Position numbers and translations under genes: made by a program. The notes beneath the pieces are model-generated. The model did not search any database and was not told the origin of the DNA. It was given only the letters and a program-made list of their open reading frames with translations. Shown here piece by piece: positions 205 to 12,593 of a stretch of 12,593 nt of DNA. Position 1 is the stretch's first letter. Each line of letters starts with the position of its first letter. The DNA comes from Candidatus Dormiibacterota bacterium (GTDB taxonomy: Bacteria; Chloroflexota; Dormibacteria; Aeolococcales; Bog-877), in contig PLDE01000133.1 of assembly GCA_003135035.1 (NCBI GenBank), positions 1 to 12,593 of the forward strand, given 5' to 3'.

Positions 205-918
205 CTAAGGGTGCTCGGGGGGTGCCTTCGGCGGGATCGTCTCAAACGACGAGAGAACGACGCTCGAAGTGGTCTCGCCGGTCGTGAAAGTTTGCGGGAC
301 CGGGTCCCCCGGCCAGAGTTCGATGGCTCTCGCAGTCGCCTCGAGAAACATGTTCGCTTCGATCTCGCGTCTAACTTCGGGGATTCCCATGCCCGGCCAT
401 TCGCAGACGAAAGCGACCGCGCCGGGAGGAGGCAACGGCCATAGCCACCAGCGCTGCTCGTAGCTCATCTCACCACCCGAGCCACCAGTGCTGGTCAAGG
501 AGATGGAGGGAGCATCCTCCGCGTCCTGACGCCGATGCCCGGAAAAGCGAGTGAGGTTGGTAGCCGCTCGGCCATCCGAGAACGCCACTCCAAAGCGAAG
601 TCGACTTGCCTGGAATGTCTGGCTGCTAGCAGAGCTCACTCCGGGGTGGGGTCGCAGGTGGCCGTTCACCATCTCGGACAGGCCGAAAGCCAGTGAATCG
701 ATCGAACGAAGGCGTACCAGCAACGTGAAGGCAACACCAGTTGGGTAAGCGGCGGCATTCGAGACCGCGACAGCAGCCGTGTCGGTGCGACCGATAAGAA
801 GCTCCAGCGGCACCCCACCTGGGATAACGCCCACCGGTGGAGCGCTCCACGGTGGGGGCGGAGGCCCGGGTCGGTCCTGGGAGCTCTCCGCAGCTGGGAG
901 CGGCTCGAAGAAGGGCAT
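205..918 (-). CDS. Conserved hypothetical protein, 237 aa
   Basis: A complete ORF from ATG at 916-918 to TAG at 205-207. The first 30 residues are rich in Pro, ending in PGPPPPPWSAPP. A body predicted to be mostly beta follows, with GGVPLELLIGRTDTAAVAVS, AYPTGVAFTLLVRLR and ASRLRFGVAFSDGR, then a Gly/Ser-rich turn and RWWLWPLPPPGAVAFVCEWP. The C-terminal part (IEANMFLEATARAIELWP) looks helical. No signal peptide or membrane segment is seen, so it is probably cytoplasmic. From memory, proteins with this layout (Pro-rich head, 'LRFGV.FxDGR', 'WVWPLPPPGPL.FVCEWP') are common uncharacterised proteins of actinobacteria and relatives. I know of no function. There is no Shine-Dalgarno before the ATG, but TAGAGT lies 6 nt upstream, which fits a leaderless mRNA. 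It is transcribed alone, away from the MFS gene. Confidence 0.85.
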   Translation of the reverse strand: MPFFEPLPAAESSQDRPGPPPPPWSAPPVGVIPGGVPLELLIGRTDTAAVAVSNAAAYPTGVAFTLLVRLRSIDSLAFGLSEMVNGHLRPHPGVSSASSQTFQASRLRFGVAFSDGRAATNLTRFSGHRRQDAEDAPSISLTSTGGSGGEMSYEQRWWLWPLPPPGAVAFVCEWPGMGIPEVRREIEANMFLEATARAIELWPGDPVPQTFTTGETTSSVVLSSFETIPPKAPPEHP

Positions 919-1311
919 TGCCGCACTCTACGCCTGCGGGTTGCTGCGGCGAGCCGGTAATTTTGGTCCTGGTGTGGACTAGCAGGCCCGCGCGAAACTT
1001 CCTGAGCCGACGAGCGCGGGCAAGTCAGTTCTCTTCCAGGCAGGCCGAACAGGGTCCCGAGCGCGACGACTCCTCCCATGACACTCCAAGCGGCTCTCCA
1101 CGACTGCCACGGCGTCTCACGCCGAATGTGCGAAGCAAGGAGGCGATGGTCACGACAAGGTCAGAGCTCGACACTCTTGACGCTGCGTCTACGGTGTCTC
1201 GGATGGGTATTCTCACGTCGCGTCGAACTTGTCCGGGACAACGTTTCGGAGATGCCTCTTGAGGGAGCGTACGGCTCTCCTAGCAGGCTAATCAGAGGAG
1301 AGGAAGGTCGC
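919..1311. other. Intergenic region of about 390 bp, possible gene remnant
   Basis: This divergent gap separates the 237-aa gene from the MFS unit. No ORF in it is convincing. On the minus strand, 1216 down to about 1110 reads as a plausible N-terminus (MRIPIRDTVDAASRV..., DLVVTIASLLRTFGV). A second minus-strand frame continues at about 1115-1020 with a hydrophobic stretch, MGGVVALGTLFGLPG. The two are in different frames, so a decayed or frameshifted small gene is possible but unproven. A small dyad GGCGT-CTC-ACGCC lies at 1111-1123. A weak promoter-like pair for the MFS unit, TTGAGG at 1259-1264 and TAGCAG at 1281-1286 with a 16-bp spacer, sits at the right edge. Confidence 0.35.
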
Positions 1312-1377
1312 ATGGTGACTGCGGTAGCTCAAGCGCGCCCTGCTGCTGTTCCCTCGCAGCGAGCGTGCGCCATCTGA
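1312..1377 (+). CDS. Candidate 21-codon leader ORF upstream of the exporter
   Basis: ATG at 1312 follows the strongest purine tract of this region (GAGGAGAGGAAGG, ending 4 nt before the ATG), whereas the MFS start itself has no clear Shine-Dalgarno. The frame encodes 21 residues (MVTAVAQARPAAVPSQRACAI) and stops with TGA at 1375-1377, inside the first codons of the MFS gene, which begins at GTG 1365 in another frame. The 13-nt overlap would allow translational coupling or ribosome-stalling control of the exporter, as known for some drug-efflux leader peptides. Alternatively a single-base error or real frameshift separates the true N-terminus from the rest of the MFS gene. No other in-frame start exists for the MFS ORF back to a stop at 1281-1283. 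Confidence 0.4.
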   Translation: MVTAVAQARPAAVPSQRACAI

Positions 1378-2639
1378 TCCCCTCCAAGTTAGGGCGCCTA
1401 CTGACGATTCGGGAGTTCGTCCTCCTGTGGTCGGGTAGCACTGTGTCGCTCTTCGGCGACGGCATCTACTTTGTCACCATCGCCTGGGAGGTGTACCGGC
1501 TCTCCGATCTACCCACGGCCCTGGGCATCGTCTCGGCTGCATTCGCCCTGCCGCAGGTTGTGCTCCTGGTCTTTGGCGGAGTCATCAGTGACCGGATGGA
1601 CCGTCGCCTACTGATGCTCTGGATGAACGCCGTCAGCGGCCTGATGATCGGTAGCCTGGGCGTGCTGGTGTTGCTCGACCGGATCCAGCTCTGGGAGATC
1701 ATCGTGCTGGTGGCGGTCTACGGAGTCAGCCAGGCATTCTTCCTCCCAGCGTCGCGAGCGATTGTTCCCAGTCTGGTCGACCCCGACCTGCTCCCTCAGG
1801 CAATGGCCGTAGAACAGTTCGTCCAACCGCTGACCGGGAGTCTTTTGGGACCGGCGGTGGGAGGGCTGCTGATCGCCGCCGGGGGCACCGGACTGGCATT
1901 CTTGATTGACGCCGCGACCTTTTTGGTGGCAGCGGGTACGTTATCGGCGATGGCCTCGGCCGTCGCTGCGGACGCTGTCGGCGACCGGGCCGAGCCCCGA
2001 CCAGGGCGATTTGCCATCCTTCACGAGGCGGGCTTGGCAGTGCGCTTCATTCGCGGTCTGCCCTGGATGTGGGCGGGACTCGCCGCCGCAGCGATCGCCA
2101 ACCTCGCCCTCACCGGTCCCCTGATGGTGCTGATCCCATTCCTCATCAAGTACCGTCTCCACTCCGGTCCCGAGGCGCTTGGCCTGGTCAGCGCCGTTGG
2201 GGGTCTGGGCGCGATTCTGGCCGCCGTTTACGTGAGCTGGCGGGGCTTGCCCCGTCAGGACATCAGCTGGATGTTCATTTGTTGGGCCGCCGCTCCGGCG
2301 GCGATGATTCCGATGAGCCTGGTCAACTCGGCCTGGGAGTTGATGCCCCTTACCTTCATCGCCATGGGTGGGCTGGCGTTCGGCAACATGGTGTGGTTCG
2401 CCAGGTTGGGGGCCCGGGTTCCTGGCCACATGCTGGGGCGAGTAGCCAGCTTCGACATGATGCTGTCTTTCAGCCTGACTCCGGTGTCAATGGCGGTAAC
2501 CGGCCCACTGGCGGGACTCATTGGGGTTCGCCATCTTTTGCTCTGGTCCGGAGCCCTGGCCTGCGCGCTCACTCTGGTATTTCTCCTGGTACCGGGCCTA
2601 CGGGTGACGGGCCGGCAGGGTATGGAGATCGGTGCCTAA
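1365..2639 (+). CDS. MFS transporter (MFS_3 / EntS-like exporter), 424 aa
   Basis: An integral membrane protein of about 12 hydrophobic segments and normal length for a major facilitator family exporter. The N-terminus (LLTIREFVLLWSGSTVSLFGDG, read in two parts) matches the layout of the MFS_3 group, which includes enterobactin exporter EntS and macrolide efflux Mef. The loop 2-3 motif A is present as GGVISDRMDRR at residues 71-81. Transport would be proton-driven efflux of a small molecule at the cytoplasmic membrane; the substrate cannot be read from sequence. The only in-frame start is GTG 1365, which lacks a good Shine-Dalgarno and overlaps the 21-codon ORF at 1312-1377. The C-terminus ends shortly after the last membrane segment. 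The gene stands alone, with a 200-bp gap before DUF2277. Confidence 0.9.
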   Translation: MRHLIPSKLGRLLTIREFVLLWSGSTVSLFGDGIYFVTIAWEVYRLSDLPTALGIVSAAFALPQVVLLVFGGVISDRMDRRLLMLWMNAVSGLMIGSLGVLVLLDRIQLWEIIVLVAVYGVSQAFFLPASRAIVPSLVDPDLLPQAMAVEQFVQPLTGSLLGPAVGGLLIAAGGTGLAFLIDAATFLVAAGTLSAMASAVAADAVGDRAEPRPGRFAILHEAGLAVRFIRGLPWMWAGLAAAAIANLALTGPLMVLIPFLIKYRLHSGPEALGLVSAVGGLGAILAAVYVSWRGLPRQDISWMFICWAAAPAAMIPMSLVNSAWELMPLTFIAMGGLAFGNMVWFARLGARVPGHMLGRVASFDMMLSFSLTPVSMAVTGPLAGLIGVRHLLLWSGALACALTLVFLLVPGLRVTGRQGMEIGA

Positions 2640-2800
2640 CGATCCCACCTCGACGCGCTCGCCTGAGCGACACGTCTGCCCATGTTCCCGACCGCACCAG
2701 CGGGGGATGCAGTTGCAGTAGAGCAACGTGGCCTTGCGGCCGTGAAGTTTGGTGACGGCAGTTCGGACCAGGTGGGCGAACCGCCATCCTCTATGAGTGG

Positions 2801-2816
2801 GCGGTCAGGTGACCGC
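2801..2816. promoter_or_regulatory. 16-bp perfect dyad, candidate operator
   Basis: GCGGTCAGGTGACCGC reads as two 7-bp arms around GG. It covers about where a -35 box would lie for the TAGCAT element at 2827-2832, so a bound dimeric regulator could block or recruit RNA polymerase for the DUF2277 gene. No regulator gene is adjacent on that side apart from the PadR gene, whose own sites (GATATATC) look different. Confidence 0.45.
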
Positions 2817-2826
2817 TGACTCAGCG

Positions 2827-2832
2827 TAGCAT
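2827..2832 (+). promoter_or_regulatory. -10 element for DUF2277 (leaderless)
   Basis: TAGCAT lies exactly 7 nt before the ATG at 2840, and there is no Shine-Dalgarno. Transcription would start on or next to the start codon, giving a leaderless mRNA. The same arrangement occurs before three other genes in this window. Confidence 0.5.
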
Positions 2833-2839
2833 CGCGTTC

Positions 2840-3094
2840 ATGTGTCGAAACATCACCACCCTCCGAGGCCTAGAGCCGGCCGCGACCAACGGGGAGATCG
2901 AAGCCGCTGCCCGCCAGTACGTGAGGAAGGTCAGCGGCGTGCAGGAGCCCTCCAGTCGCACCGAGGAAGCGTTTGAGGCCGCGGCCCGCACGGTAGCCGC
3001 GGCAACCCTTGAACTGTTGGTAGACCTACCGCCGCGACAACTGCCGCCCCGTACGACACCCCCGCTGAGGCGCCTTCGGGCGACGGGTGAGTAA
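2840..3094 (+). CDS. DUF2277 family protein, 84 aa
   Basis: A small cytoplasmic protein starting MCRNITTLRGLEPAATNGEI, the hallmark N-terminus of the DUF2277 family (MCRNIKxLxNxEPPAT-type). The middle (AARQYVRKVSGVQEPSSRTE) also fits: the 'QFVRKVSGxxxPS' segment is typical. A helical stretch and a Pro/Arg-rich tail follow. The length is usual for the family. The biochemical function is unknown. The start is fixed by the conserved N-terminus and by the -10 element 7 nt upstream. A CGCC-TTCG-GGCG mini-hairpin at 3071-3082 lies near the 3' end. It converges on the PadR gene and appears to be a single-gene unit. Confidence 0.93.
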   Translation: MCRNITTLRGLEPAATNGEIEAAARQYVRKVSGVQEPSSRTEEAFEAAARTVAAATLELLVDLPPRQLPPRTTPPLRRLRATGE

Positions 3095-3195
3095 GTCGGT
3101 CAGAGGCTGGCCGCGGGCGGGCCATCCGGGCTAGCCACCCCGAAAACCGTTAGCGCTGCGGCACGGGAAGGTTGCTGCGCCGGTTCGGCCCAGCC

Positions 3196-3234
3196 GCTCA
3201 GCTGAGCTCACCCAGGCGCGCTAGCTGCCTGGGT
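3196..3234. repeat. Two inverted repeats in the convergent gap
   Basis: GCTCAGCTGAGC at 3196-3207 is a perfect 12-bp palindrome. Directly after it, ACCCAGGC at 3210-3217 pairs with GCCTGGGT at 3227-3234 (8 bp, 9-nt loop). They lie between the ends of DUF2277 and PadR and probably help end transcription, though no T-tract follows. Confidence 0.5.
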
Positions 3235-3251
3235 CGCCGCGAGGCAGGGTG

Positions 3252-3289
3252 GCCCTGGGGCCCCGACCAAAGGGTCGGAGCCCTGGGGC
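3252..3289. terminator. Long hairpin between convergent genes
   Basis: The arms 3252-3268 and 3273-3289 pair over 17 positions around an AAAG loop, with one C/A mismatch and two G-T pairs. This is the strongest hairpin of the gap and lies just beyond the stop of the PadR gene (3305), 158 nt past the end of DUF2277. Its position fits a bidirectional terminator. Neither strand has a following T-run, so the mechanism is not certain. Confidence 0.5.
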
Positions 3290-3304
3290 GGATGTCTTGG
3301 CTCC

Positions 3305-3943
3305 CTATGCGGAAGTGGACCCGCCGGGCGCGGTCTCTTCCTCGGCCAGTATCCGGTAGAGGTTCCGCTTTGTTTCCTTCAACAGATGGGCAGCCTTGGC
3401 CACTTGGTCAGGGTTGCCGGCCTGGGAGACCTGGACCATGGCGGCCATGGTCTGGCGCATCAGCGAATGCAGCTCGTGGACGTCGTCGCCAACTGTCCCG
3501 GCAAGCGCCTCCCAGGGAGACCCAAATTCGGCGCGGTGCTCCTCGGTATAGGACTTCCCCGCGTCGGTCAGCGTGAACAGGCGCTGGCCATCCGTCTCCT
3601 GGGAACGAACCAGTCCTTCGTCCTCCAGCTGCTGGAGAGCGGGATACACAGACCCCGGGCTCGGACTCCAGACACCCTTGCTGCGTTCGGTGATCTCCTG
3701 CATGATTTGGTAACCGTTCCGGGGCTGCTCGTCGAGGAGGAGCAGGGTGGCCGCCCGGACGTTTCCACGGGGCACCCGACCTCCCCGGCCACCGCGCATT
3801 CTGGCCCCCCATGCCCGCCGGAACGGTCGGTCGAAATCGTGATCCCCGAAGGGACCAGAGCGGCCCCTGGGGTGGCGGCCGCTCTGGCCCGGGTGCTCCG
3901 CACCCGGATCGTGGCCAGGCCCTGCTGGGAAGTTCGTCATCAT
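3305..3943 (-). CDS. PadR-family transcriptional regulator, 212 aa
   Basis: A winged-helix repressor. Residues 1-58 form a His/Gly/Pro/Arg-rich head; residues about 59-135 carry the PadR DNA-binding domain (RGNVRAATLLLLDEQPRNGY, then SPGSVYPALQQLEDEGLV at 94-111 with the recognition helix and wing, then RLFTLTDAGK). Residues 140-212 are mostly helical and probably form the dimer arm of a class-2-like PadR. It should bind its operator as a dimer and release it on binding a ligand or drug; the ligand is unknown. ATG at 3941-3943 is supported by AGGAGG with a 7-nt spacer. The promoter region is shared with the divergent propeller gene and holds two GATATATC palindromes, which suggests autorepression and control of that neighbour. 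Confidence 0.93.
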   Translation of the reverse strand: MMTNFPAGPGHDPGAEHPGQSGRHPRGRSGPFGDHDFDRPFRRAWGARMRGGRGGRVPRGNVRAATLLLLDEQPRNGYQIMQEITERSKGVWSPSPGSVYPALQQLEDEGLVRSQETDGQRLFTLTDAGKSYTEEHRAEFGSPWEALAGTVGDDVHELHSLMRQTMAAMVQVSQAGNPDQVAKAAHLLKETKRNLYRILAEEETAPGGSTSA

Positions 3944-3963
3944 GTCATCGCCTCCTCTAGATT

Positions 3964-3971
3964 GATATATC
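3964..3971. promoter_or_regulatory. GATATATC palindrome, candidate PadR operator 1
   Basis: An 8-bp palindrome overlapping the plus-strand -35 box and lying just downstream of the expected start of padR transcription. It is continued by TATCCGATA at 3968-3976, a second small dyad. Its centre is 31 bp, about three helical turns, from the matching palindrome at 3994-4003. Confidence 0.5.
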
Positions 3972-3993
3972 CGATACGGTCATGCTAGCTCAA

Positions 3994-4003
3994 CGATATA
4001 TCG
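3994..4003. promoter_or_regulatory. CGATATATCG palindrome, candidate PadR operator 2
   Basis: A perfect 10-bp palindrome containing the same GATATATC core. It sits between the -35 and -10 boxes of the minus-strand padR promoter and over the expected start of plus-strand transcription, so bound repressor would block both directions. Confidence 0.55.
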
Positions 4004-4082
4004 ATTGTCAAGAGAGAAGAGGAAGGGGGTTCGGACGGAGAGTGGAGCGGTCTGGCAACAGCCGCTGCTATGGTCACCGGCA

Positions 4083-5354
4083 ATGTTGTGCCTGCGCGGA
4101 GGGCCGAGCCATCAGGCCGGGCGCCTGCTCGCTGGCCTGGCCTTCGCCGCCATCCTCTGGGCGCAGCCCATGGCCGCCAAGGCCGCGACGCCATCCTTCG
4201 GGACGGGACAGTTGGGCGTGCTGTCCAGCGTCAGCGCCACGGCGAGCGACGCCTGGGCGGTGGGCGAGGGAACCGACCCCGTCACGGGCGCCCACACAAC
4301 CCTGGTACTGCACTGGAACGGAGCCAGCTGGAGCCAGGTGGCCAGCCCCAATCCGGGAGGCACGAAGGCGCGCAGCGACAGCTCCGCCTTAGACGGTGTG
4401 AGCGCTCTCTCGACGACCGACGTGTGGGCGGTGGGTAGCTATACCAGTCCGACGACGGGCGCCCACGAGTCACTCATTCTGCACTGGAACGGCAGCAGCT
4501 GGCGCCAGGTAGCCAGTCCCAACCCCGGGGGCACCACGTCCAGTGGATCGGGCACCAACCTCCAGGCGGTGAGTGCCGAGACCGCAAAGGACATCTGGAT
4601 CGTCGGCGGCTACCTCAACCGAGCCTCCGCAGCTGACCAGACGCTGACCCTGCATGGCGACGGGAGAAGCTGGAGCGTCGTCGCGAGTGGGAGTCCCGGG
4701 GGGATCAAGAAGGACGATCTCAGTGATCTCGATGGCGTGGACGCCATTTCGAAGAGCGATGTCTGGGCAGTCGGTGAGTACAGCACCCAGGCGAAGAGCT
4801 CCGGCCGCGATGCCGTGGTGCTGCACTGGAACGGCGCCCGGTGGTCGCGGGTGGCTAGCCCTAACGCGTCTGGTCAGAGTGGCCAGAGAGTCACCAATCT
4901 AGCTAGCGTGACGGCCACCTCGGCCCGCTTCGCCCTGGCCGTCGGAGCCTTCAGCTCGGATCCCGCGAGCAGTGCCCTGGAGTCGCTGAGTCTGCGCTGG
5001 AGGGGCTCGGCATGGGAGCAGGTGGCCAGCCCCAATCCGGGCGGCGTCACCGGAGTCGCAGATTTCACCAGTCTCGCCAGCGTCAGCGCCGTCTCGGCAG
5101 AGAACGCCTGGGCGGTCGGGGACGACACCGACGCCAGCAGTGGAGCACTGGACAGCGTGGTGCTGCACTGGAACGGCAGCAAGTGGGCCCGAGTCAGCAG
5201 CCCCAACCCGTCGACGACCGCCACCTACCTCTTCAGCGTTTGTGCGGTTTCGGCAGCGGACGTCTGGGCGGTCGGTTCGTACTATGACGCCACTACCAAG
5301 TCTGACTACACGCTGGTGTTGCACTGGAACGGGATCAGTTGGTTGCCAGCCTGA
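4083..5354 (+). CDS. Secreted seven-repeat beta-propeller-like protein, 423 aa
   Basis: The protein has an N-terminal signal peptide: a basic start, a hydrophobic core LLAGLAFAAILW at residues 15-26, and an A-x-A site (AKA|ATPS) near residue 34. From residue 47 to the end it is seven tandem repeats of about 56 residues, of the form L..VSA.S..DVWAVGSY......LHWNG.SW..VASPNPGG. The seventh is cut short after HWNGISW. Repeats 3 and 5 are the most diverged (DIWIVGGY/LHGDG and ALAVGAF/LRWRG). Seven copies fit one closed seven-bladed propeller, outside the cell. No catalytic residues are obvious; binding or surface attachment is a guess. ATG 4083 places the signal peptide correctly but lacks a Shine-Dalgarno. 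An in-frame TTG at 4005 would add 26 residues. It is divergent from padR and probably under its control. Confidence 0.85.
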   Translation: MLCLRGGPSHQAGRLLAGLAFAAILWAQPMAAKAATPSFGTGQLGVLSSVSATASDAWAVGEGTDPVTGAHTTLVLHWNGASWSQVASPNPGGTKARSDSSALDGVSALSTTDVWAVGSYTSPTTGAHESLILHWNGSSWRQVASPNPGGTTSSGSGTNLQAVSAETAKDIWIVGGYLNRASAADQTLTLHGDGRSWSVVASGSPGGIKKDDLSDLDGVDAISKSDVWAVGEYSTQAKSSGRDAVVLHWNGARWSRVASPNASGQSGQRVTNLASVTATSARFALAVGAFSSDPASSALESLSLRWRGSAWEQVASPNPGGVTGVADFTSLASVSAVSAENAWAVGDDTDASSGALDSVVLHWNGSKWARVSSPNPSTTATYLFSVCAVSAADVWAVGSYYDATTKSDYTLVLHWNGISWLPA

Positions 5355-5384
5355 CCAGAGCAGCCTACCTGCCGATGCGGCTGG

Positions 5385-5696
5385 CTACTCCGCGGACTGG
5401 CCGGCCCTGCCTGCGTCAAGCCAGACCGACCATGGCTCAATCAAGCCGATCCTGAGAAGCTCCATCGCCGCCCAGGGATCCTCGCCAAACCGCGCTTTGA
5501 TCTCGTTCTCGTTGCCGGCCTCAACGACGACCATGACCCGCTGCCCGTCGCCGATAGGCCCGCCCAGGATCACCAGCTTCTCCGCCACCAGTTGATCCAT
5601 GAAGGCGGCGTGCTGATCCCAGCCCTCCTGCTCGCGGATCGAGCGCGAGCTGTCCCATCGCGGGCCGTGCACCATGGTCACGACGAAGAAGCTCAC
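5385..5696 (-). CDS. YciI-like (YCII-related domain) protein, 103 aa
   Basis: A small alpha/beta protein of ferredoxin-like fold with the sequence order of YCII-related proteins: strand FFVVTMVHGP, a helix with GWDQHAAFMDQLVAEK, the turn VILGGPIGDGQRVMVVVEA, a second helix EIKARFGEDPW, and the closing IGLIEPWSVWLD. The helix His (H30, in DQHAAFMD) is in the position of the family's conserved His. Members include muconolactone-isomerase-like and stress-linked enzymes, but most are uncharacterised, so no reaction is claimed. The start is GTG 5694-5696, 6 nt after TAGACT and without a Shine-Dalgarno, which fits a leaderless mRNA. It converges with the propeller gene (30-nt gap) and diverges from the small-protein pair. 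Confidence 0.88.
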   Translation of the reverse strand: MSFFVVTMVHGPRWDSSRSIREQEGWDQHAAFMDQLVAEKLVILGGPIGDGQRVMVVVEAGNENEIKARFGEDPWAAMELLRIGLIEPWSVWLDAGRAGQSAE

Positions 5697-5702
5697 TCAG
5701 CG

Positions 5703-5708
5703 AGTCTA
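5703..5708 (-). promoter_or_regulatory. -10 element for the YciI-like gene
   Basis: Read on the minus strand this is TAGACT, followed by 6 nt and then the GTG start. No convincing -35 box is seen. The same TAGACT and GTG pairing recurs before the Ddn-family gene. Confidence 0.5.
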
Positions 5709-5815
5709 TTTCACGTGGTCGAGGGTGCTGGCTTCCCAGGGGACGCGCCGCTTCTACACTTCTGAGCAGACGATCAGGTCCGCCAACAGAAGCGACACGT
5801 ATAGGAGGGGAGAGC

Positions 5816-6103
5816 ATGACGTATTCCCAGGGGGACGCTGGCAATCGTGGGCCGACGTCGGAGTGGGAGACGTACGGTCGCGCCATGCTTGACTCGATGG
5901 CGGAGGTGCTGGCGGAGGCGCCGGAGACCGTCCGCCATCTGCTCCTGGAGACGGCCGACTACTGGCTCGCCGTGGGTCTGGCTCTGGGAACCAAGGCCCC
6001 AGACCAAGCCAAGCGGCTCCTCCAGTTGCTGGAGAGCGAGGAGGCCGAGCGGGCTGAGCTCGAGCGCGACGGAGCAGCCTTTGCCATCGAGGCCACGAGT
6101 TGA
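5816..6103 (+). CDS. Uncharacterised small helical protein, 95 aa
   Basis: I do not recognise a family. The start is well supported: AGGAGG at 5803-5808 with a 7-nt spacer before ATG 5816. After a polar head of about 17 residues the chain looks helical throughout, with EWETYGRAMLDSMAEVLAEA, then PETVRHLLLETADYWLAVGL, then an acidic helix AKRLLQLLESEEAERAELE. The stretch YWLAVGLALG is apolar but too short for a clear membrane span. It is acidic overall, in contrast to the very basic 49-aa product encoded 14 nt downstream, which could mean that the two bind each other. It is divergent from the YciI-like gene across a gap of about 120 bp that must hold its promoter, which I cannot place. Confidence 0.75.
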   Translation: MTYSQGDAGNRGPTSEWETYGRAMLDSMAEVLAEAPETVRHLLLETADYWLAVGLALGTKAPDQAKRLLQLLESEEAERAELERDGAAFAIEATS

Positions 6104-6117
6104 GGCGCAGGAGCCTG

Positions 6118-6267
6118 GTGAGCGACCTCTACCGGACCGCCCGAATGGCCAACGATGTGAGCACCCTGGCCTCAGGCAACCCGCACCGGATTGCCCGGCG
6201 CGCCAAGAACAAGATCGTAGGTCGGGCCCTGGCACGAGCCGGAATCTGGCGGGCCCTCTGGCGCTGA
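6118..6267 (+). CDS. Uncharacterised basic 49-aa protein
   Basis: This short gene starts at GTG 6118, 14 nt after the stop of the 95-aa gene, with AGGAG at 6109-6113 as ribosome-binding site (4-nt spacer), and ends at TGA 6265-6267. The product begins MSDLYRTARMANDVSTLASG, then has a strongly basic stretch HRIARRAKNKIVGRALARAG and the end IWRALWR. I recall similar small proteins with a '...RRAKNKxxGRALxxxGxWRxLWR' tail from other high-GC bacteria, but no function. The basic, amphipathic tail with three Trp/Ile-type anchors suggests nucleic-acid or membrane contact. It is probably co-transcribed and translationally coupled with the acidic 95-aa protein. It converges on the CPBP gene 33 nt away. 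Confidence 0.65.
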   Translation: MSDLYRTARMANDVSTLASGNPHRIARRAKNKIVGRALARAGIWRALWR

Positions 6268-6300
6268 GTGCTCGGTTGGGCTAGTCCTCTGTGGTCAGGC

Positions 6301-6936
6301 TCAGCTGACCGCCTGGGTGGGACGCACCAGGAAGATCCATACATCCCAGAGGGCGTGACTGACGATCAGAGCCGGCATGGGCGTGCCCACCGCCGCTAGC
6401 CCCGACCATCCCGCGCCCGCGACAGTGGCGGCTCCCACCAAGGTGGGGTTGCCGGTGCAGAGGTGGGCACCCCCGTAGAGCGCGGCCGAGACAGCAGCTG
6501 CCCGACCCCGTCCCAGCCGTCGGCTCAGAGTCTCCTGGAGTAGACCGCGCCAAAACAACTCCTCAGCGGGAGCGATCACCAGGGCCAGCCGCAGCGCCAA
6601 CTCCGCCCGGGGACGAAGTCGGCGCAGCTGGTAGATGTTGCCGATGTCCTGGTCGCCGTGAGGCATGACCACCCGGGCCGCCCGATCGCCGACCGCGAAT
6701 ACCGCGTAGAGGCCGCCCGCGATGGCGGCGCCCAGGGCAAGGTCGCTGGGGCCCACTTTCTGGTGGCGCAGATGGCGGCTGCTCAGCAACGAGATGGAGC
6801 CGAGGCCGAGCGCTGTCCCTGTCATGCGCTGCCAGAAGCGCTTGCGTGGCCCCCGGAAGGTGGCGGCGAAGGCGAGGTAGGCGAAGACCGAACTGGCCAC
6901 CACCAGCGCCGGCTTCGGTTTCTCCGGGAGAGCCAA
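6301..6936 (-). CDS. CPBP-family intramembrane metalloprotease, 211 aa
   Basis: A membrane protein of the CPBP/Abi group (Rce1-like). The glutamate motif EELFWRG is at residues 125-131, a His in YGGAHLC at 158, and the closing motif HALWD at 194-198; these are the expected metal-binding and catalytic positions. Several hydrophobic segments surround them (for example ALGAAIAGGLYAVFAVG and ALRLALVIAPAEELFW). Rce1 cleaves prenylated proteins; bacterial members often serve in bacteriocin immunity or are of unknown role, so the substrate is open. The start read here is TTG 6934-6936, 11 nt after the stop of the LLM-UbiA gene with only AGG as a weak ribosome-binding site, which points to translation coupled to that upstream gene. 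It is the last gene of the minus-strand run. Confidence 0.87.
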   Translation of the reverse strand: MALPEKPKPALVVASSVFAYLAFAATFRGPRKRFWQRMTGTALGLGSISLLSSRHLRHQKVGPSDLALGAAIAGGLYAVFAVGDRAARVVMPHGDQDIGNIYQLRRLRPRAELALRLALVIAPAEELFWRGLLQETLSRRLGRGRAAAVSAALYGGAHLCTGNPTLVGAATVAGAGWSGLAAVGTPMPALIVSHALWDVWIFLVRPTQAVS

Positions 6937-6947
6937 GATGACCTGGC

Positions 6948-8927
6948 TCAGCCCGGGTGCCAGGAGACGCTGATCGCGATCCCGGCCACTAGGAGCAGGC
7001 CGAAGGCCGCGTGGAGCTGGGCTGTCTCCAGGTCGATCATGGCGATGGCTCGCTGCTGACCGGCGGCGCCCAGCTCAGAGGCGTTGAGGGCGCGGACCAG
7101 AAGCGGCAGGGAAAGCAGTGCCAGCAGGCTGAGCCGGGGGAGCAGGCCGACGGCGACGGCAAGGGCCAGGGTGACGAAGGCTCCCACCAGCAGGCCCACG
7201 TACAGGTGATGGGCAAAGTGACGGCCGGCACGGATGGAGAACGTGCTGATCCCGGCGCGCGCGTCCTCGCCAATATCGCGCCACTCGTTGCCGTGCAGGA
7301 TGGCGGTGACCAGGAGGCCGATGGGAACACTCGCCGCCCCGGCCGCCACGGCGAGATGGCCGGTGATGGTGAAGTAGGCCCCCAGCACCATCAGCGGTCC
7401 CATCAAGAGGAAGACCAACGGCAGTCCGGCGGCCCGGTACTTGTACTGCAGCGGCGGGGCGGTGTAGCCCCAGCCCCCGATCAGGCCCAGGGCGCCGAAG
7501 ACGAGCAGGGGCCAGCCCCGGGTGAGGATGAGCACGACTCCAATCAGCGTCGCCAGCAGAAATGCGGTTCCCGCCAGAAAGAAGGCCTCGCGCTCTCTGA
7601 CTCTGCCGGTGAGCAAGGCCTGGCTGGCCCGAGGCGAGGTGATGGCATCGATGCCCTTGCGCACGTCATAGATCTCGTTGATCACGTTGGTGCCAACCTG
7701 GAGCAGGACGGCGCCGACCAGGACCAGAGCGAAGAGGGGCCAGCTGAAGCCGTGTCGAAGCGCTGCCAGGGCCGCCGCCGCCGACACCGGGACGATGGAG
7801 GCGGTGAGAGCGAAGGGGCGGGTGATCTCGAGCCAGCCGCGGGATCGTCGGAGCAGACCGATCCTGTCGTTGGACTTGGTCGGCCGTCGCCGCGAGCCCC
7901 AGGCCGGCGCCATCGCGCCCGCCGAACCGTAGATAACCGCGGCCTCGATCACCGCCTCCACCTGAGCCTCCTCCTGGACGACGGGCTGCAGGATGGGGAG
8001 GTCCATCCCCGCCTCGCGGAAGCGTTCGGCTCCGGCCGCAACCTCCTCCCTGGTGCCGCAGAGGAGGAAGGCGTCGACCAGCTCATCGGGGATCAGCTGG
8101 GCGGCCCCGTGGTAGTCCTCTCTGCGCCAGGCCGCCAGGATCGGCTGCCGCAGAGCCGGGTCCATCCCGGTGCGCCGCATGGCGACGTCGGTCTGCACCG
8201 CCAGCATGTAAATGGCGAAGGGCTCGCGCTTGGCGCGGTCCAGGGCCGCTCGCCGACTGCTGTCAATCAGAGAGAGGAGATAGCCGCCGATGACGACCTC
8301 GCCGGGATCGCGACCGGCTGCCACGGCGGCCGCCCGGATTCGCCTGGCTGCCAGCGCCACCGCCTCGATCGGCTCGGCCGGTCGAGCCAGATACCCGTCG
8401 GCAAGACGGCCGGCGAGTTCGTGGAACGAGCGACGGTACCCGGCCGCCCAGATCGGCACCTGGTGGACCGGGGGAAACATGGGCTCCACCTCGGGGACTC
8501 CCGGAGCTCCCAGGGCCAGGCGCTCTCCCCGCCAGAGCAGGCGCAACTCCTCCATCGTCTTGCCGACCTTGGCGACCGCTTCCTCGGAGTGGTAAGGAAT
8601 CCCCATCTGGGCCAGCCTCAGGGGAAGGGCGGTTCCCAGGGCGAGGGTGATCCGCCCGGGAGCCAGGTCGTCGAGGGCGCTCACCGTCATGGCCAGGACC
8701 ACCTGGTTGCGGGTGTTGGGGTTGAGCGCTCCCAGGCAGATGCGCAGGCGGGGCACGCTGGTGGCAACGGCGGTGGCGTAGGTCACCGCGTCCCGGGCGA
8801 AGTAGGACTCATGGAACCAGATCGAGTCCAGTCCAGCCCGCTCCGCCATCTCCGCTTGTCGCACGGCGTCGCGCACCTCGCCCTGGGCGTTCAGCCCGAG
8901 ACCGACCGCGCGTGCCAGAGAGGGCAT
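6948..8927 (-). CDS. LLM-class oxidoreductase fused to MenA-like UbiA prenyltransferase
   Basis: One uninterrupted frame of 659 codons joins two enzymes. Residues about 1-335 are a luciferase-like (LLM) TIM barrel of the F420-dependent type (ARAVGLGLNAQGE, AERAGLDSIWFHES, DDLAPGRITLALGT, VPIWAAGYRRS). After a basic linker (SRRRPTKSNDR) residues about 365-659 form a UbiA membrane prenyltransferase with both Mg-diphosphate motifs: N-INEIYDVRKGID (N417, D421, D427) and NEWRDIGEDARAG (N547, D551, D555). The second motif and WGYTAPPLQY resemble MenA, which prenylates 1,4-dihydroxy-2-naphthoate in menaquinone synthesis. A likely reading is a membrane-tethered F420 oxidoreductase tied to quinone or another prenylated product. 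The start at 8925-8927 is chosen because AGGAGG lies 6 nt before it; an ATG five codons upstream would include that AGGAGG as coding sequence. It is followed at 11 nt by the CPBP gene. Confidence 0.9.
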   Translation of the reverse strand: MPSLARAVGLGLNAQGEVRDAVRQAEMAERAGLDSIWFHESYFARDAVTYATAVATSVPRLRICLGALNPNTRNQVVLAMTVSALDDLAPGRITLALGTALPLRLAQMGIPYHSEEAVAKVGKTMEELRLLWRGERLALGAPGVPEVEPMFPPVHQVPIWAAGYRRSFHELAGRLADGYLARPAEPIEAVALAARRIRAAAVAAGRDPGEVVIGGYLLSLIDSSRRAALDRAKREPFAIYMLAVQTDVAMRRTGMDPALRQPILAAWRREDYHGAAQLIPDELVDAFLLCGTREEVAAGAERFREAGMDLPILQPVVQEEAQVEAVIEAAVIYGSAGAMAPAWGSRRRPTKSNDRIGLLRRSRGWLEITRPFALTASIVPVSAAAALAALRHGFSWPLFALVLVGAVLLQVGTNVINEIYDVRKGIDAITSPRASQALLTGRVREREAFFLAGTAFLLATLIGVVLILTRGWPLLVFGALGLIGGWGYTAPPLQYKYRAAGLPLVFLLMGPLMVLGAYFTITGHLAVAAGAASVPIGLLVTAILHGNEWRDIGEDARAGISTFSIRAGRHFAHHLYVGLLVGAFVTLALAVAVGLLPRLSLLALLSLPLLVRALNASELGAAGQQRAIAMIDLETAQLHAAFGLLLVAGIAISVSWHPG

Positions 8928-8933
8928 CGACAA

Positions 8934-8939
8934 CCTCCT
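8934..8939 (-). promoter_or_regulatory. Ribosome-binding site that sets the LLM-UbiA start
   Basis: AGGAGG on the minus strand, 6 nt before ATG 8925-8927. The longer alternative start at 8940-8942 reads ATG-AGG-AGG, meaning the Shine-Dalgarno itself would be translated; that start has no ribosome-binding site of its own. Confidence 0.7.
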
Positions 8940-9040
8940 CATCGAGCCGGACCGGGGCCTGATCTAGGGCCGCTCTGATGAAGGGTACCCGGTCACCAAC
9001 CGGTCCGAGGAGGCGGCGTTAGCGCGTGTGCCCGAGCCGA

Positions 9041-9066
9041 CTCATCCCCGCTCAGGCGGGGGTGAG
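9041..9066 (-). terminator. Hairpin with the Ddn-family stop codon in its loop
   Basis: CTCATCCCCGC at 9041-9051 pairs with GCGGGGGTGAG at 9056-9066 (11 pairs, one of them G-T) around the 4-nt loop TCAG. On the minus strand the loop contains the TGA stop (9052-9054) of the Ddn-family gene. It could end or attenuate transcription into the LLM-UbiA gene, or stabilise the upstream mRNA end. There is no T-run. Confidence 0.45.
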
Positions 9067-9486
9067 CACGACCAGGGGTATCGGGCGCTGGGTCCTACTC
9101 TGGTAGACGTCGTAGCGCCCGTGGTTGGTGTCGTTGACCAGGCGCCAGAGCCGGGGATATTCGGGATCGCCGCGCTCCACCACGCCGGCACGGGCTGCGG
9201 TTCGCTGGCGCCCGCGCAGCAGCTCCACCTTTGGACTGGCGCGGAGATTGAGTAACCAGGCGGGAGGCCGGTCCTGGCCATCGTTGGAGGCGACGACCAC
9301 CAAGGTGCCCTGGTCGGCGGCGTAGACGAGGGCGTTGCGTCGGGTGACCCCGCTCTGTCGCCCGGTCGTCTCCAGGAGGAGAGTGGGCACCCCGATCATG
9401 TGGTGCCCCAACGCTCCACCGCTCTGACGATAGACCCAGCCGTGGAAGCGTAGAAACCAGTGCTGCAACTTGCTACTCACGCCCAC
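9052..9486 (-). CDS. Ddn-family F420-dependent nitroreductase/quinone reductase, 144 aa
   Basis: This is a split-barrel protein of the deazaflavin-dependent nitroreductase (Ddn) family. It shows the amphipathic N-terminal helix (LQHWFLRFHGWVYRQSGG), the strand-turn PTLLLETTGRQSGVTRRNAL, a strand VVVASNDGQD, the segment WLLNLRASPKVELLRG, and the C-terminal Tyr- and Arg-containing end (YDVYQSRTQRPIPLVVL). M. tuberculosis Ddn uses F420H2, activates pretomanid and can reduce menaquinone; the same type of activity is probable here, at the membrane face. The start at GTG 9484-9486 is preferred because TAGACT lies 7 nt upstream; TTG at 9490-9492 would add two residues. The upstream PP2C gene ends 41 nt away, the LLM-UbiA gene begins 124 nt downstream. 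Confidence 0.92.
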   Translation of the reverse strand: MGVSSKLQHWFLRFHGWVYRQSGGALGHHMIGVPTLLLETTGRQSGVTRRNALVYAADQGTLVVVASNDGQDRPPAWLLNLRASPKVELLRGRQRTAARAGVVERGDPEYPRLWRLVNDTNHGRYDVYQSRTQRPIPLVVLTPA

Positions 9487-9493
9487 CAGCAAG

Positions 9494-9499
9494 AGTCTA
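9494..9499 (-). promoter_or_regulatory. -10 element for the Ddn-family gene
   Basis: TAGACT on the minus strand, 7 nt before GTG 9484-9486. It would give a leaderless mRNA independent of the PP2C gene upstream. No clear -35 box. Confidence 0.45.
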
Positions 9500-9527
9500 G
9501 AGCGGCTCGGGCAGCCCCCCTAGTTCT

Positions 9528-10172
9528 TCAAGCGAAATAGACGACCAGGGCGGTCTTGTCATCGTGCTTGCGCGCCATCTTGACCAGCTGTCCAGCCGCG
9601 ACTTGGGGATCATCACTTTCGAGCGCGGAGGCGAGATCCTGGGCGCTGAGCAAGTCGGGCGGGTAGTCGCCGGTGATGCCATCGGTTGCCAAGAGCAGCT
9701 TGCTTCCCGGACGAAGGGGAAGGCTGCCCCGCTGAGGAGCGACACTGGCACCGGGGCGCTCATCTCCCTCGCCCAGGGCATTGAAGAGAATCCGGCCCTC
9801 GCCCTCATCGACCGTCATTTGAACCAGCTCGGACGTCTCGTCCTCTTGGAGATAGAGGCGCGAATCTCCCACTGAGACGTAGACAAGCTGATCCCCAAGA
9901 ACGCGGGCCACGGTCGCGGTTGTCGCTCCCAGCGATCTCTGTCTAATCACGCGATCGGCGCTCTCGCAGCCTGCCACTAGGGCGTCCATAGGGGACAGGC
10001 TGGTGCTTCGGCAGGCTTCGCTGATCACTTCCGCCGCGGTACGGGCCGCCTCACCGCTCCGTGCGAACTGGCCAACGCCGTCAAAGACCCCGAACAGCCC
10101 CAGATCAAGATCGACCAGCGCGCGATCCTGATCGTGCAGGGGGATCTCCGCCAGTCCGACCCGCCATCTCAC
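9528..10172 (-). CDS. PP2C-family Ser/Thr protein phosphatase, 214 aa
   Basis: A single-domain, soluble Mn/Mg-dependent phosphatase, shorter than the usual 230-260 residues at its N-terminus. Metal and core motifs are present in order: HDQDR at 13-17 (where NEDR is usual), GVFDGVGQF at 28-36, GATTATV at 82-88, VSVGDSRLYL at 99-108, LLATDGITGDY at 160-170 and HDDKTALVV at 203-211. It should remove phosphate from Ser/Thr of target proteins opposite Hanks-type kinases, none of which is encoded here. The GTG start (10170-10172) shares GTGA with the stop of the upstream glycosyltransferase gene, a 4-nt overlap that points to translational coupling. The partner or target may therefore be connected with that membrane enzyme, though this is inference. 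Confidence 0.92.
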   Translation of the reverse strand: MRWRVGLAEIPLHDQDRALVDLDLGLFGVFDGVGQFARSGEAARTAAEVISEACRSTSLSPMDALVAGCESADRVIRQRSLGATTATVARVLGDQLVYVSVGDSRLYLQEDETSELVQMTVDEGEGRILFNALGEGDERPGASVAPQRGSLPLRPGSKLLLATDGITGDYPPDLLSAQDLASALESDDPQVAAGQLVKMARKHDDKTALVVYFA

Positions 10173-11611
10173 ATCTGGCCGTCGGGAGTCGCGCGGCGGT
10201 AGGGGGAGACGTCCGCTGTCACGCGGGGGGCGTCGGCCACTTCTTGGCTGCTCCCGAGCGGCTCGCTCCGGAGATCGCGGCCAGCCAGCAATGCCAAGAT
10301 CGCTACCACCGCCAGCAACGGCACCTGGGCCATGTACTCGTCGAGACTACGCCAGCTCAGCCAGAAGGCCGCCAGAGTGAGAACTCCGGCACTGACCCGC
10401 CAGCTCGGCCGGAGCCGACCCCAGAACACAATCAGGGCCATGGCGGCGGCGGTTGCCGCCAAGAAGAGGTCGGAGGGCAGGGGCTTGATCACCCCCTGCA
10501 GGATGAGGACGACCGGGCCGTAACCGAGCGGAAAGGTGGGAGCCGCCAGATTGCGCCAAATGGTGCTGATGGCATCGGGATACGCCACCAGCAGGGGAAC
10601 GACGGCCAGCGCCAGAGTCGCCACCAGGGCGACCAGTCTCCGGAGCTTGCCATCGAGAGCCAGACAGAGCAGCAGGTAGGCGGGAAGAAAGAAGAGGGCC
10701 AGTTCATTGGAGCCCACCGCGAGTCCGAGGCAGACGGCCGAGAGCACTGGCCGTCTGATCCAGAGGACCGATGCGGCCATCAGCAGATAGGCCACCGACT
10801 CGGCGTTGCCAAAGCTGGCGAAGTTGAGCGCGGAGCCGGGTATGAAGTAAGTTGCCAGGAATGCGGCTAGCGCAGCCGCCCAGAGGGAGCCGGCCGCAAC
10901 TCCCAGGAGGACGGCGAAGATCGCCGCCGCCAGCAGCGTCCAAAGGGAACGCATCTGGGACGACATGCTGGCGACCGGAATCATGGAGACCGGATCTAGC
11001 GGCGGCTTGGCGAGTCCAGAGAAGACGTTCGCCGTACTGCCAGCGCTGCCCGCTGAACGGGCGGCCGCCTTGATCCGGGCGGCGGAGGGATAGGTGTCAA
11101 CACCGGCGAACGGGCCCACCCGTAATGGGGTTGCCAGGGTGACGGAGAGCCCGAGCTGGCGCAGGCAAGCAATCTCATTCACCTGATAGGGGTCTTGACC
11201 CTTGGTGATCGCCTGGGCCCCACACACCGCCATGGCGTTGGCATCGTCGATGCGCTGGGAGTCGCCAGGCAGGGAATTGACGATGGAGGCCAAGACGAAG
11301 CCACCGACCACCAGCAGGACGACCGGGGAGAGAACCAGGATTCTCCCCGGGTGACGCCGTCTGATCCAGTCGGGCAGGACGCTTCGGCAGCTGAGCGCGA
11401 TCAGAACCACGAAGGCCAGATAGCAGCAGAGCTCCAGAGCATCGTTGGCATAGAGAGCGGCCCGTCCCGGGATGGTCGGCGAAATCTCCTGGAAGTTGGC
11501 GAACTTCAGGGCTACCAGCGCCAGGGCGATCAGGACGAGGCGGTCCGCTGTCTCTGAGCGGAGGCTCCCGCCACGGGGAAGCCACCTTCGCCAGCGCGCC
11601 ACCACCGTCAA
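10169..11611 (-). CDS. GT87-like (DUF2029) membrane glycosyltransferase, putative, 480 aa
   Basis: A polytopic membrane protein with about ten or more hydrophobic segments, for example RLVLIALALVALKFA, ILVLSPVVLLVVGGFVLASI, LLAAAIFAVLLGVAAGSLW and LRRLVALVATLALAVVPLLV. The loop after the early segments carries acidic DDANAMAVC at 122-130 followed by KGQDPY at 137-142, the layout of GT-C enzymes that use polyprenyl-phosphate sugars, such as GT87 mannosyltransferases. ASFGNAESVAYLLMAA and GLAVGSNELALFFLPAYLL also fit this group. The exact sugar and acceptor are unknown. A Ser/Ala-rich loop (residues 177-200) is unusual. The start read is TTG 11609-11611, with GGAGG about 10 nt upstream; GTG two codons later is an alternative. 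The last 40 residues are cytoplasmic and polar. It is the first gene of the minus-strand run and overlaps PP2C. Confidence 0.75.
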   Translation of the reverse strand: MTVVARWRRWLPRGGSLRSETADRLVLIALALVALKFANFQEISPTIPGRAALYANDALELCCYLAFVVLIALSCRSVLPDWIRRRHPGRILVLSPVVLLVVGGFVLASIVNSLPGDSQRIDDANAMAVCGAQAITKGQDPYQVNEIACLRQLGLSVTLATPLRVGPFAGVDTYPSAARIKAAARSAGSAGSTANVFSGLAKPPLDPVSMIPVASMSSQMRSLWTLLAAAIFAVLLGVAAGSLWAAALAAFLATYFIPGSALNFASFGNAESVAYLLMAASVLWIRRPVLSAVCLGLAVGSNELALFFLPAYLLLCLALDGKLRRLVALVATLALAVVPLLVAYPDAISTIWRNLAAPTFPLGYGPVVLILQGVIKPLPSDLFLAATAAAMALIVFWGRLRPSWRVSAGVLTLAAFWLSWRSLDEYMAQVPLLAVVAILALLAGRDLRSEPLGSSQEVADAPRVTADVSPYRRATPDGQM

Positions 11612-11956
11612 CTCTGAGACGCCTCCTTTCCCGAGGAGCGGGCTACCAACCTACCCGCACGCCGGTTGATCGATTGCCTCCCCGCGTGCCGATCGCGGCC
11701 CTGTCGACGCCTGGGCGAGCTGCCGGAGCCGCTTGCAGGGGACGTTGCGGTCCCCATCAGTCTGGAACCGTGACCTTAGGAACAGCTGGGCGAAGCCGTC
11801 TGGACCGTGATGGCGGCGATCTCCCCACCGCTACAGGTAGAACTCGATCTCCATCCTAAGGGCAAGGCGGTCCAAGATGGAGCCGATGGCCCAGCGGAGC
11901 GCGGGAGCGGGCCCGGCTCTCCCCCGGGGAGTCGGCGAGGCTATCCTCCGAGCCAG
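11612..11956. other. Divergent intergenic region of about 345 bp
   Basis: No supported gene: the short ORFs here lack recognisable sequence. It must contain the promoters of the glycosyltransferase run (minus) and the CDF gene (plus). On the minus strand AAAGGAGG at 11622-11629 serves the glycosyltransferase start. A hairpin, CTCCATC at 11849-11855 with GATGGAG at 11876-11882 and a 20-nt loop, lies about 75 nt before the CDF start and might be a control element; nothing further can be said. Confidence 0.5.
11942..11947 (+). promoter_or_regulatory. Possible -10 element for the CDF gene
   Basis: TATCCT lies 9 nt before ATG 11957, which has no Shine-Dalgarno. This would give a 5' leader of only a few bases. 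No good -35 box is visible. Confidence 0.35.
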
Positions 11957-12593
11957 ATGAGCCATGAGCGCGCGCCGAATGCGCTAGGGCAGAGCATCGG
12001 GCCCGAGGCGGATCGCCGTTATATCTACGCCGCGCTCGGCCTGATCGTGGCTTTCATGATCTTCGAGGTCACCGCCGCTGTGCTGGCAGGTTCGCTGGCG
12101 CTACTGGCTGATGCCGGCCACATGCTGGCGGACGTGGGCGCGCTCGGGGGGGCCCTCTGGGCGACCTACCTAGCGGCGCGACCGAGCAGCAACCGTTTCA
12201 GCTTCGGACTCAAGCGAGCCGAGGTACTGGCCGCCGCCATCAACGGTGTGACCCTGCTGGTGGTCGCCTTTCTCATTGGCCTAGACGCGATCGGCCATCT
12301 GGTATCGCCCCGACCCGTCCACGGGCTGACCCTGCTCATCGTCGCTGGGGTGGGAGTCGCGGTCAACCTGCTCGCTGTCCGGATCTTGGCTCGAGCCGAC
12401 CGTACCTCGATGAGCATTCGTGGGGTAACCGCCCACGTTCTCACCGATCTCTACGCATTCATCGCCACCGTCATTGCTGGAGCGGTGATTCTGCAATTCG
12501 GCTTTGCTCGTGCCGACTCGATCGCGTCGCTGGTGGTTGTCGGGCTGATGCTGCGAGCCGCGGCCGGGTTGCTCCGCGCCTCCGGGCGGATTC
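11957..12593 (+). CDS. CDF-family zinc/cadmium exporter (CzcD-like), 5' part
   Basis: The first 212 codons of a cation diffusion facilitator; the gene runs off the window. Five to six membrane segments are visible. The metal-site residues of the Zn/Cd subgroup are present: H55 and D59 in DAGHMLADVGA (TM2) and H160 and D164 in TAHVLTDLYA (TM5). FSFGLKRAEVLAAAINGVTLL at 81-101 is typical of the loop 2-3 and TM3 region, and DSIASLVVVGLML matches TM6. The His-rich loop between TM4 and TM5 is absent (only ARADRTSMSIRG), as in many bacterial members. It would export divalent metal from the cytoplasm in exchange for protons. ATG 11957 gives a short polar cytoplasmic head of about 20 residues before TM1. 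No metal regulator is seen next to it. Confidence 0.93.
   Translation, partial: MSHERAPNALGQSIGPEADRRYIYAALGLIVAFMIFEVTAAVLAGSLALLADAGHMLADVGALGGALWATYLAARPSSNRFSFGLKRAEVLAAAINGVTLLVVAFLIGLDAIGHLVSPRPVHGLTLLIVAGVGVAVNLLAVRILARADRTSMSIRGVTAHVLTDLYAFIATVIAGAVILQFGFARADSIASLVVVGLMLRAAAGLLRASGRI

Follow-up and report, generated by a model that had tools for sequence, protein, structure and literature searches.

Why should a single polypeptide from a soil bacterium carry both an F420-type reductase domain and a vitamin-K-type prenyltransferase domain? The question is raised by one gene in a contig of a Candidatus Dormiibacterota bacterium (PLDE01000133.1, assembly GCA_003135035.1, positions 1 to 12,593 of the forward strand; "the window" below means this whole stretch of 12,593 nucleotides). 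The gene joins a luciferase-like (LLM) domain to a UbiA-type prenyltransferase domain, and we refer to it as the LLM-UbiA fusion. We found that it seems to mark lineages apparently without either known menaquinone route, that is, the Men and the futalosine pathways, and that it may therefore mark how its carriers make or rescue quinones.

The fusion is a genuine gene

The fusion and the elements within it all lie on the minus strand, as follows.

6948..8942, minus strand: LLM-UbiA fusion gene, a single open frame of 664 amino acids
8001..8897, minus strand: LLM/LLHT TIM-barrel domain, residues 16-314, by Pfam and structure comparison
8727..8732, minus strand: Gly71-Ala72, aligning with the non-prolyl cis-peptide Gly61-Val62 beneath F420 in Mer
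7857..7922, minus strand: basic linker, residues 341-362, mostly of low model confidence
7089..7793, minus strand: UbiA prenyltransferase domain, residues 384-618, MenA/UBIAD1-like by Pfam, NCBIfam, fold, and tree
7647..7679, minus strand: first Asp-rich motif, N422-E-I-Y-D426-V-R-K-G-I-D432
7263..7289, minus strand: second Asp-rich motif, N552-E-W-R-D556-I-G-E-D560

The true start is likely the second ATG (8927), which lies behind a GAGGAGG at 8940-8934. The first part of the protein matches Bac_luciferase (PF00296) over residues 16-314 with 154 bits and the second matches UbiA (PF01040) over residues 384-618 with 107 bits, both above the Pfam cut-offs, and the basic linker of ~22 residues between them ranges from 19 to 64 residues across 42 homologues. 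In an AlphaFold model that took the 42 homologues as input (mean pLDDT, 87), linker residues 344-358 have a pLDDT of <50 and a loop past the first Asp motif (432-439) is also of low confidence. A preliminary description of this DNA, made from its letters, had placed the two domains in one frame with a short basic linker, and the Pfam matches and the linker bear this out. In NCBIfam, the fusion best matches models of MenA-type prenyltransferases and of Mer/F420-LLM families, and the best 25 of 40 matches all lie below their own cut-offs.

Both Pfam domains were present in all 120 of the best 120 of 2125 scored homologues (61-92% identity). Relatives are also encoded at 41 loci from named genome assemblies, their named sources being Dormibacterota, Actinomycetota, and Chloroflexota; most are full length, with a few copies cut by contig ends and one, at locus L047, frameshifted. 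One homologue, P0026, comes from Acidothermaceae bacterium B102, apparently an isolate. Dozens of independent assemblies thus carry the fusion, which is real and not an assembly artifact. The preliminary description had considered that homologues encoded as separate, unlinked genes might reveal a local sequencing or assembly fusion, and we found instead that the fused state is the normal one, with split or frameshifted copies at a few sites. Single-domain homologues occur mostly on short contigs and sometimes on long ones (P0130, P0246: 547,464-base contig). At L047, the halves lie in overlapping frames, apparently frameshifted between the domains, in a genome (G076) that also encodes a menB-like protein described below. 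Plasmid-borne copies were considered and rejected, as no relative was found at an E value of 1e-30 in 72,556 plasmid records.

Carriers of the fusion appear to have neither known menaquinone route

We examined a class sample of 61 genomes in four families (f1 to f4, the window's family being f1) and found the fusion in 28 of them, comprising 11/11 genomes of f1, 15/18 of f3, 2/21 of f4, and 0/11 of f2. The carrier tally was 29, from which G005 was excluded (the UbiA part alone matches there), whereas G029 and G052 were counted though cut by contig ends. menB scored above the cut-off in 25 of the 61 genomes (f4, 19/21; f2, 6/11; f1, 0/11; f3, 0/18) and menD did so in 24 of these 25, the 25th (G060) having menD in two sub-cut-off pieces. 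Not one of the 61 genomes had the fusion together with menB (Fisher p 1.7e-10, a value that overstates the evidence because the genomes are related), and neither menB nor menD was found above the cut-off in any of the 28 carriers; 8 of the 61 genomes had neither menB nor the fusion. The most telling evidence for this exclusion is the contrast within f4, in which the two carriers, G024 and G036, are the sole two of 21 genomes without menB, menD, and canonical MenA.

The fact that menD is missing as well as menB led us to reject, for the 28 class carriers, the idea that MenB alone had been replaced by another enzyme. A search for MqnA/MqnD (PF02621) of the futalosine route found none in the 61 class genomes and was positive in 4 of 14 control genomes. 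A futalosine route via MqnC was likewise rejected, no match lying above the cut-off in the 61 genomes; sub-cut-off TIGR03699 matches were seen in 7 of the 11 f1 genomes, and the one in the window's own genome is the CofG-CofH (FbiC) protein. We also looked at 17 further carriers, chosen among the 41 loci because they probably lie outside the sample of 61 genomes, although five of them (L039, L040, L041, L044, and L047) may belong to the class, L044 being cut by a contig end. menB above the cut-off and MqnA/D were each found in 0/17 (menD was not searched there), and one of these carriers, G076, has a menB-like match that, at 300 bits, falls short of the cut-off.

Because carriers are without menB, menD, and MqnA/D and some of them need quinol, as described below, we concluded that the fusion seems to mark lineages apparently without a known quinone pathway. 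The preliminary description had suggested that electrons from F420 are fed to an existing menaquinone pool, and the same absences mean that plain feeding of such a pool is not supported.

Two f2 genomes without menB, menD, or the fusion, G007 and G016, encode a distinct MenA-like stand-alone UbiA in what by eye is a trp/aroA-like cluster (L182:7316-8461 and L183:6563-7726, respectively), perhaps pointing to yet another quinone route. In the carrier G024, a gene that by eye resembles a thiamine diphosphate (TPP) enzyme overlaps a further divergent MenA-like UbiA (L162:1-2581).

F420 genes and the respiratory chain

F420 biosynthesis genes, for which the preliminary description had proposed a search, are present in the window's own genome, which has cofD as well as CofG and CofH of the FbiC type, all above their cut-offs. 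Across the class sample, cofD was above the cut-off in 47 of 61 genomes (22/28 carriers and 25/33 non-carriers). In the f4 carriers G024 and G036, cofD falls just below the curated cut-off (~245 of 257 bits), so that their F420 status is less sure than that of f1.

In the f3 carriers G002 and G014, genes for a Rieske protein, cytochrome b, and COX1 are clustered together, and in G002 the cluster was confirmed to include cytochrome c, COX2, and a CtaA-CtaB fusion as well; these two genomes therefore need quinol. Carrier stretches around ctaB in G019, G013, and G024 (five stretches listed of ten fetched) contained no such genes within the stretch, and no genome-wide search was made.

The prenyltransferase domain lies near MenA and UBIAD1

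The residues named in the motif patterns N422-E-x-x-D426-x5-D432 and N552-x-x-R-D556-x3-D560 are identical in 42/42 aligned homologues. The first position of motif 1 is Glu in place of Asp, again in 42/42, and the N-x-x-R-D-x3-D of motif 2 is of the MenA type. The fusion scored below the cut-off of each MenA equivalog model listed, with 92.1 versus 102.15 bits for TIGR00751, 161.9 versus 277 bits for NF004749, and 158.5 versus 264 bits for NF004751. The nearest solved UbiA structure, by sequence and by fold, is UBIAD1 (8djk/8djm), a match that indicates proximity rather than membership, no solved MenA being among the matches listed.

In a tree of 81 UbiA domains, all fusion rows formed one clade (100/99) and canonical MenA another (100/99). 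Both grouped with a second fusion type, described below, and the two f2 genes (97/88), apart from heme-O-synthase-like and other UbiAs, whereas branching inside this MenA-like group was weakly supported (90/78), and the tree program warns of long branches meeting. The 81 domains are those left of 139 rows from fetched sequences after near-identical and surplus rows were dropped, with no characterized MenA among them. Judged by its sequence, the UbiA domain of the fusion is thus MenA/UBIAD1-like, in a clade apart from canonical MenA, and not MenA itself. The preliminary description had called it MenA-like, and this holds to the extent that both Asp motifs are present and the tree does not place the domain far from MenA; it does not extend to membership, given the sub-cut-off scores and the separate clade.

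The LLM domain resembles Mer but has a different active site

The solved structures nearest to the LLM domain are those of the F420-dependent TIM-barrel enzyme Mer, in agreement with the earlier description of this domain as F420-type. FMN-dependent relatives may share the non-prolyl cis-peptide, and we infer that the LLM domain binds F420 rather than FMN. Gly71 is Gly in 42/42 homologues and aligns with Gly61 of jMer, which makes it a candidate cis-peptide site. At the active site, by contrast, Glu6, Asp96, residue 178, and Phe233 of Mer are replaced by G16, L106, R187, and Y245, the Glu6-to-G16 mapping being an ungapped extension of the alignment by six residues (the Mer cis-peptide and active-site positions are those given in excerpts of PMC11094777). 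The replacing residues are themselves strict among homologues (G16, L106, and R187 in 41/42 each and Y245 in 42/42). With the catalytic Glu and the pterin-site residues replaced, Mer activity was rejected.

A second N-terminal domain on a related prenyltransferase

A related UbiA occurs behind a different N-terminal domain of ~130 residues at four places (L023, G005, G038, and G041). This domain had no match in a Pfam or PDB sequence search. It is predicted, with modest confidence (pLDDT, 67), to fold into a barrel of six strands. Outside the UbiAs, Foldseek matched this model best to an FAD-binding protein, 6eci (E, 0.046; prob, 1.00), presumably a split barrel, followed by weaker matches to FMN-binding and PNPOx-like proteins; a second structural comparison gave no split-barrel fold among the matches listed. 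A split-barrel reading is therefore of low confidence, resting on that model, one Foldseek match, and the weaker ones.

In G005, which has no LLM fusion, the second fusion lies between HPRT and PgsA, which in G002 flank the LLM fusion and a gene for a CPBP membrane protein. The two genomes also share the order glcF, methionyl-tRNA formyltransferase, IscA, and response regulator (53-85% identity over seven genes, named by eye); a DegP-like gene of G002 has no match at the G005 locus, which is split over two contig ends. At L023, the two fusion types stand in tandem. Both N-terminal domains are probably redox domains, and the fact that two such unlike domains are found on MenA-like enzymes at the same place suggests that the fusion serves to couple a reduction to prenylation.

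Neighboring genes support a link to quinone biosynthesis

The two nearest neighbors of the fusion in the window are the following.

6301..6936, minus strand: polytopic membrane protein of the CPBP type (Rce1-like, EExxxR), 11 bp downstream of the fusion
9052..9492, minus strand: Ddn/FDOR-A-type protein (PF04075, F420H2_quin_red, 124 bits), the next gene upstream

We compared neighbors at 42 loci (the window and the 41 others); the upstream flank is at least 1 kb long at 38 of them and the downstream flank at 37. Counts come from direct searches for each gene: a first clustering of all open reading frames was discarded because antisense frames swamped it, and an earlier clustering gave CPBP at 23 loci and MenG at 6. 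The most conserved neighbor is CPBP, a gene that the preliminary description did not mention; a homologue follows the fusion on the same strand at 38/42 loci, with EExxxR in 36 of the 38 frames. Of the four remaining loci, three (L030, L044, and L046) offer hardly any sequence, or none, on that side of the fusion, whereas L026 has several kilobases. The protein is perhaps a scaffold or chaperone.

A MenG/UbiE methyltransferase homologue is found at 11/42 loci, nine times divergent and directly upstream, judged by coordinates, and twice downstream. These homologues are 54-70% identical to the probes, except in L042, from which the probe itself was taken (100%), and two examples exceed NCBIfam cut-offs. 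A fusion of a YjbQ/UPF0047 domain to a polyprenyl-diphosphate synthase lies directly upstream at 4/42 loci (L042:4629-6008, plus strand; L040; L043; and L047). As background, 47 other stretches from class genomes, carriers and non-carriers alike (593 kb), contained two MenG-type genes at 30% identity, Ddn in one stretch, and no polyprenyl-diphosphate synthase or CPBP. The link to quinone biosynthesis drawn in the preliminary description is thus supported by gene neighborhoods more strongly than that description could know. Its proposal that the upstream Ddn-family protein acts with the fusion fared differently: the gene is real, as PF04075 confirms, and yet Ddn adjoins the fusion at 2/42 loci, so that an F420-Ddn-menaquinone module was rejected as a conserved feature. 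Overall, that description was partly right to connect the fusion with quinone biosynthesis and was wrong to pair it with Ddn, and it did not reach the stronger point about the missing pathways.

Three further window genes were noted. A PP2C-like phosphatase (9528-10172, minus strand) clustered only with an L009 gene that stands beside the L009 Ddn gene; a membrane-like protein of 480 amino acids (10169-11611, minus strand) has no Pfam match; and a secreted-looking protein of 449 amino acids (4005-5354, plus strand), with repeats that by eye end in DVWAVG or close variants, has no confident Pfam family.

What the fusion may do

The reading that we favor, with slightly less than even confidence, is that the fusion is a prenyltransferase of the membrane, belonging to the MenA/UBIAD1 branch and bearing an F420H2-dependent reductase at its front, and that it works in a route that makes or rescues a quinone and is neither Men nor futalosine. 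It draws on sequence evidence: the architecture, motif conservation, neighbors, F420 genes, the absence of MenB, MenD, and MqnA/D in the carriers tested, and the cytochrome b and oxidase genes of two carriers. We infer that a quinone head group is the acceptor and that the steps run in the following order. The head group, an aromatic compound that is probably a naphthoquinone or its carboxylate, would reach the enzyme in oxidized form, either taken up from the surroundings or produced by an unknown pathway, and the LLM domain would transfer hydride to it from F420H2 to give the hydroquinone, which is the form that MenA-type enzymes alkylate; for a head group that arrives oxidized, it is reasonable that the prenyltransferase should have a reductase of its own at its side. 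The UbiA domain would then add the chain supplied by a polyprenyl-diphosphate synthase and MenG/UbiE would methylate the ring, both being encoded next door in some carriers, and the product would feed the cytochrome b-Rieske complex. The conversion of menadione to menaquinone by UBIAD1 provides a precedent (PMC6786277), and some bacteria are known to use quinones, or precursors of them, that other organisms have made (PMC10746273, PMC5738691). A scavenged head group and one from an unknown pathway both fit.

A wider claim is possible, although we regard it as more doubtful: that uncultured lineages of Chloroflexota/Dormibacterota and some Actinomycetota make a respiratory (naphtho)quinone by a third route, which depends on neither Men nor Mqn, and that the fusion is its signature enzyme. 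In such a route, a reductase of the head group that uses F420H2 or a flavin would be joined covalently to the prenylation step, an arrangement that would have arisen twice in one chromosomal location, with N-terminal domains of different fold. One finding weighs against a simple replacement: canonical MenA is also present in 9 of the 11 f1 genomes, where it adjoins dnaA-dnaN-recF-like genes and not men genes (four f1 stretches, by eye). It was found above the cut-off in none of the 18 f3 genomes.

Among the alternatives, an unlikely one has the LLM domain act after prenylation, using F420H2 to saturate one or more polyprenyl double bonds of the nascent quinone, as MenJ, an enzyme of a different fold, saturates the quinone chain in mycobacteria. 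The fusion would hold the reductase at the membrane interface beside the fresh chain, and the neighboring genes speak for quinone synthesis in this case just as they do in ours. F420 can also drive challenging redox reactions (PMC8498797). However, the invariant polar residues R187 and Y245, at Mer substrate-site positions, point to a polar or aromatic acceptor of small size more than to a polyprene, and chain saturation leaves the missing MenB and MenD of carriers unexplained.

We consider it improbable that the fusion is an F420:menaquinone oxidoreductase, as the preliminary description proposed, with the LLM domain reducing the prenylated quinone pool and Ddn acting as a parallel enzyme. 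The presence of F420 genes, the Ddn gene beside the fusion in the window, and the ability of Ddn-family enzymes to reduce menaquinone (PMC8498797) agree with it, but menaquinone reductases are split-barrel FDOR enzymes in the same account, Ddn is adjacent at so few loci, reduction of a pool requires no prenyltransferase, and carriers are without known routes to that pool.

We regard as similarly improbable that a non-quinone aromatic is prenylated and reduced to give a secondary metabolite or a membrane protectant. UbiA enzymes accept many aromatics, and most f1 genomes retain a separate canonical MenA; the MenG and polyprenyl-diphosphate synthase neighbors, the mutual exclusion with menB, and a presence throughout f1 and in most of f3, which is unlike that of a secondary metabolite, argue otherwise. 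Least probable is a degenerate or structural LLM domain that anchors or stabilizes an ordinary divergent MenA fed with scavenged 1,4-dihydroxy-2-naphthoate, which would accommodate the loss of all four Mer active-site positions compared and the known use of others' quinones or precursors (PMC10746273, PMC5738691) but not the strictness of the replacements (41-42 of 42), the cis-peptide Gly kept in 42/42, or the fact that a related UbiA in the same chromosomal position is joined to a second, different N-terminal domain.

Comparison with known systems

In open-access literature, searched by titles and abstract openings, we found no description of an LLM-UbiA fusion, of covalent coupling of an F420 enzyme to a prenyltransferase, or of the quinones of the carrier lineages. 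An F420 review (PMC8498797) contains no word beginning UbiA or prenyl. A 2026 survey of 26,264 genomes reports many lineages, mostly Bacillota and Chloroflexota, seemingly without known quinone pathways, notes that several of these contain fermenters and that other quinones may await discovery, and does not use the stem "dormi" (PMC13386864). A named gene turns the open question posed by such lineages into a testable one.

How does the fusion compare with the enzymes that it resembles? With MenA (TIGR00751, NF004749/NF004751) it has in common the UbiA domain, both Asp motifs, and, at some loci, MenG and polyprenyl-diphosphate synthase neighbors; it differs in its sub-cut-off scores, its own clade, the Glu at the start of motif 1, the attached LLM domain, and host genomes without menB and menD. 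UBIAD1 is an animal enzyme that, unlike the fusion, has no attached reductase. From Mer and the F420-dependent LLHT group (Adf, FGD), the LLM domain differs in the replacement of the catalytic Glu6 and the pterin contacts and in being joined to a membrane enzyme. The Ddn/FDOR-A F420H2-dependent menaquinone reductases provide a precedent for chemistry from F420H2 to quinone (PMC8498797), whereas their fold is different, they are encoded by a separate gene, and that gene is seldom adjacent. The nearest published architecture that we found is that of the IspH-UbiA "Rosetta stone" fusions (PMC4746011), in which a redox enzyme is likewise followed by a C-terminal UbiA-like prenyltransferase; there, the partner is IspH, an iron-sulfur enzyme of isoprenoid supply, in sulfate-reducing anaerobes, whereas here it is of the F420/FMN type, in hosts that seem to be without known quinone pathways.

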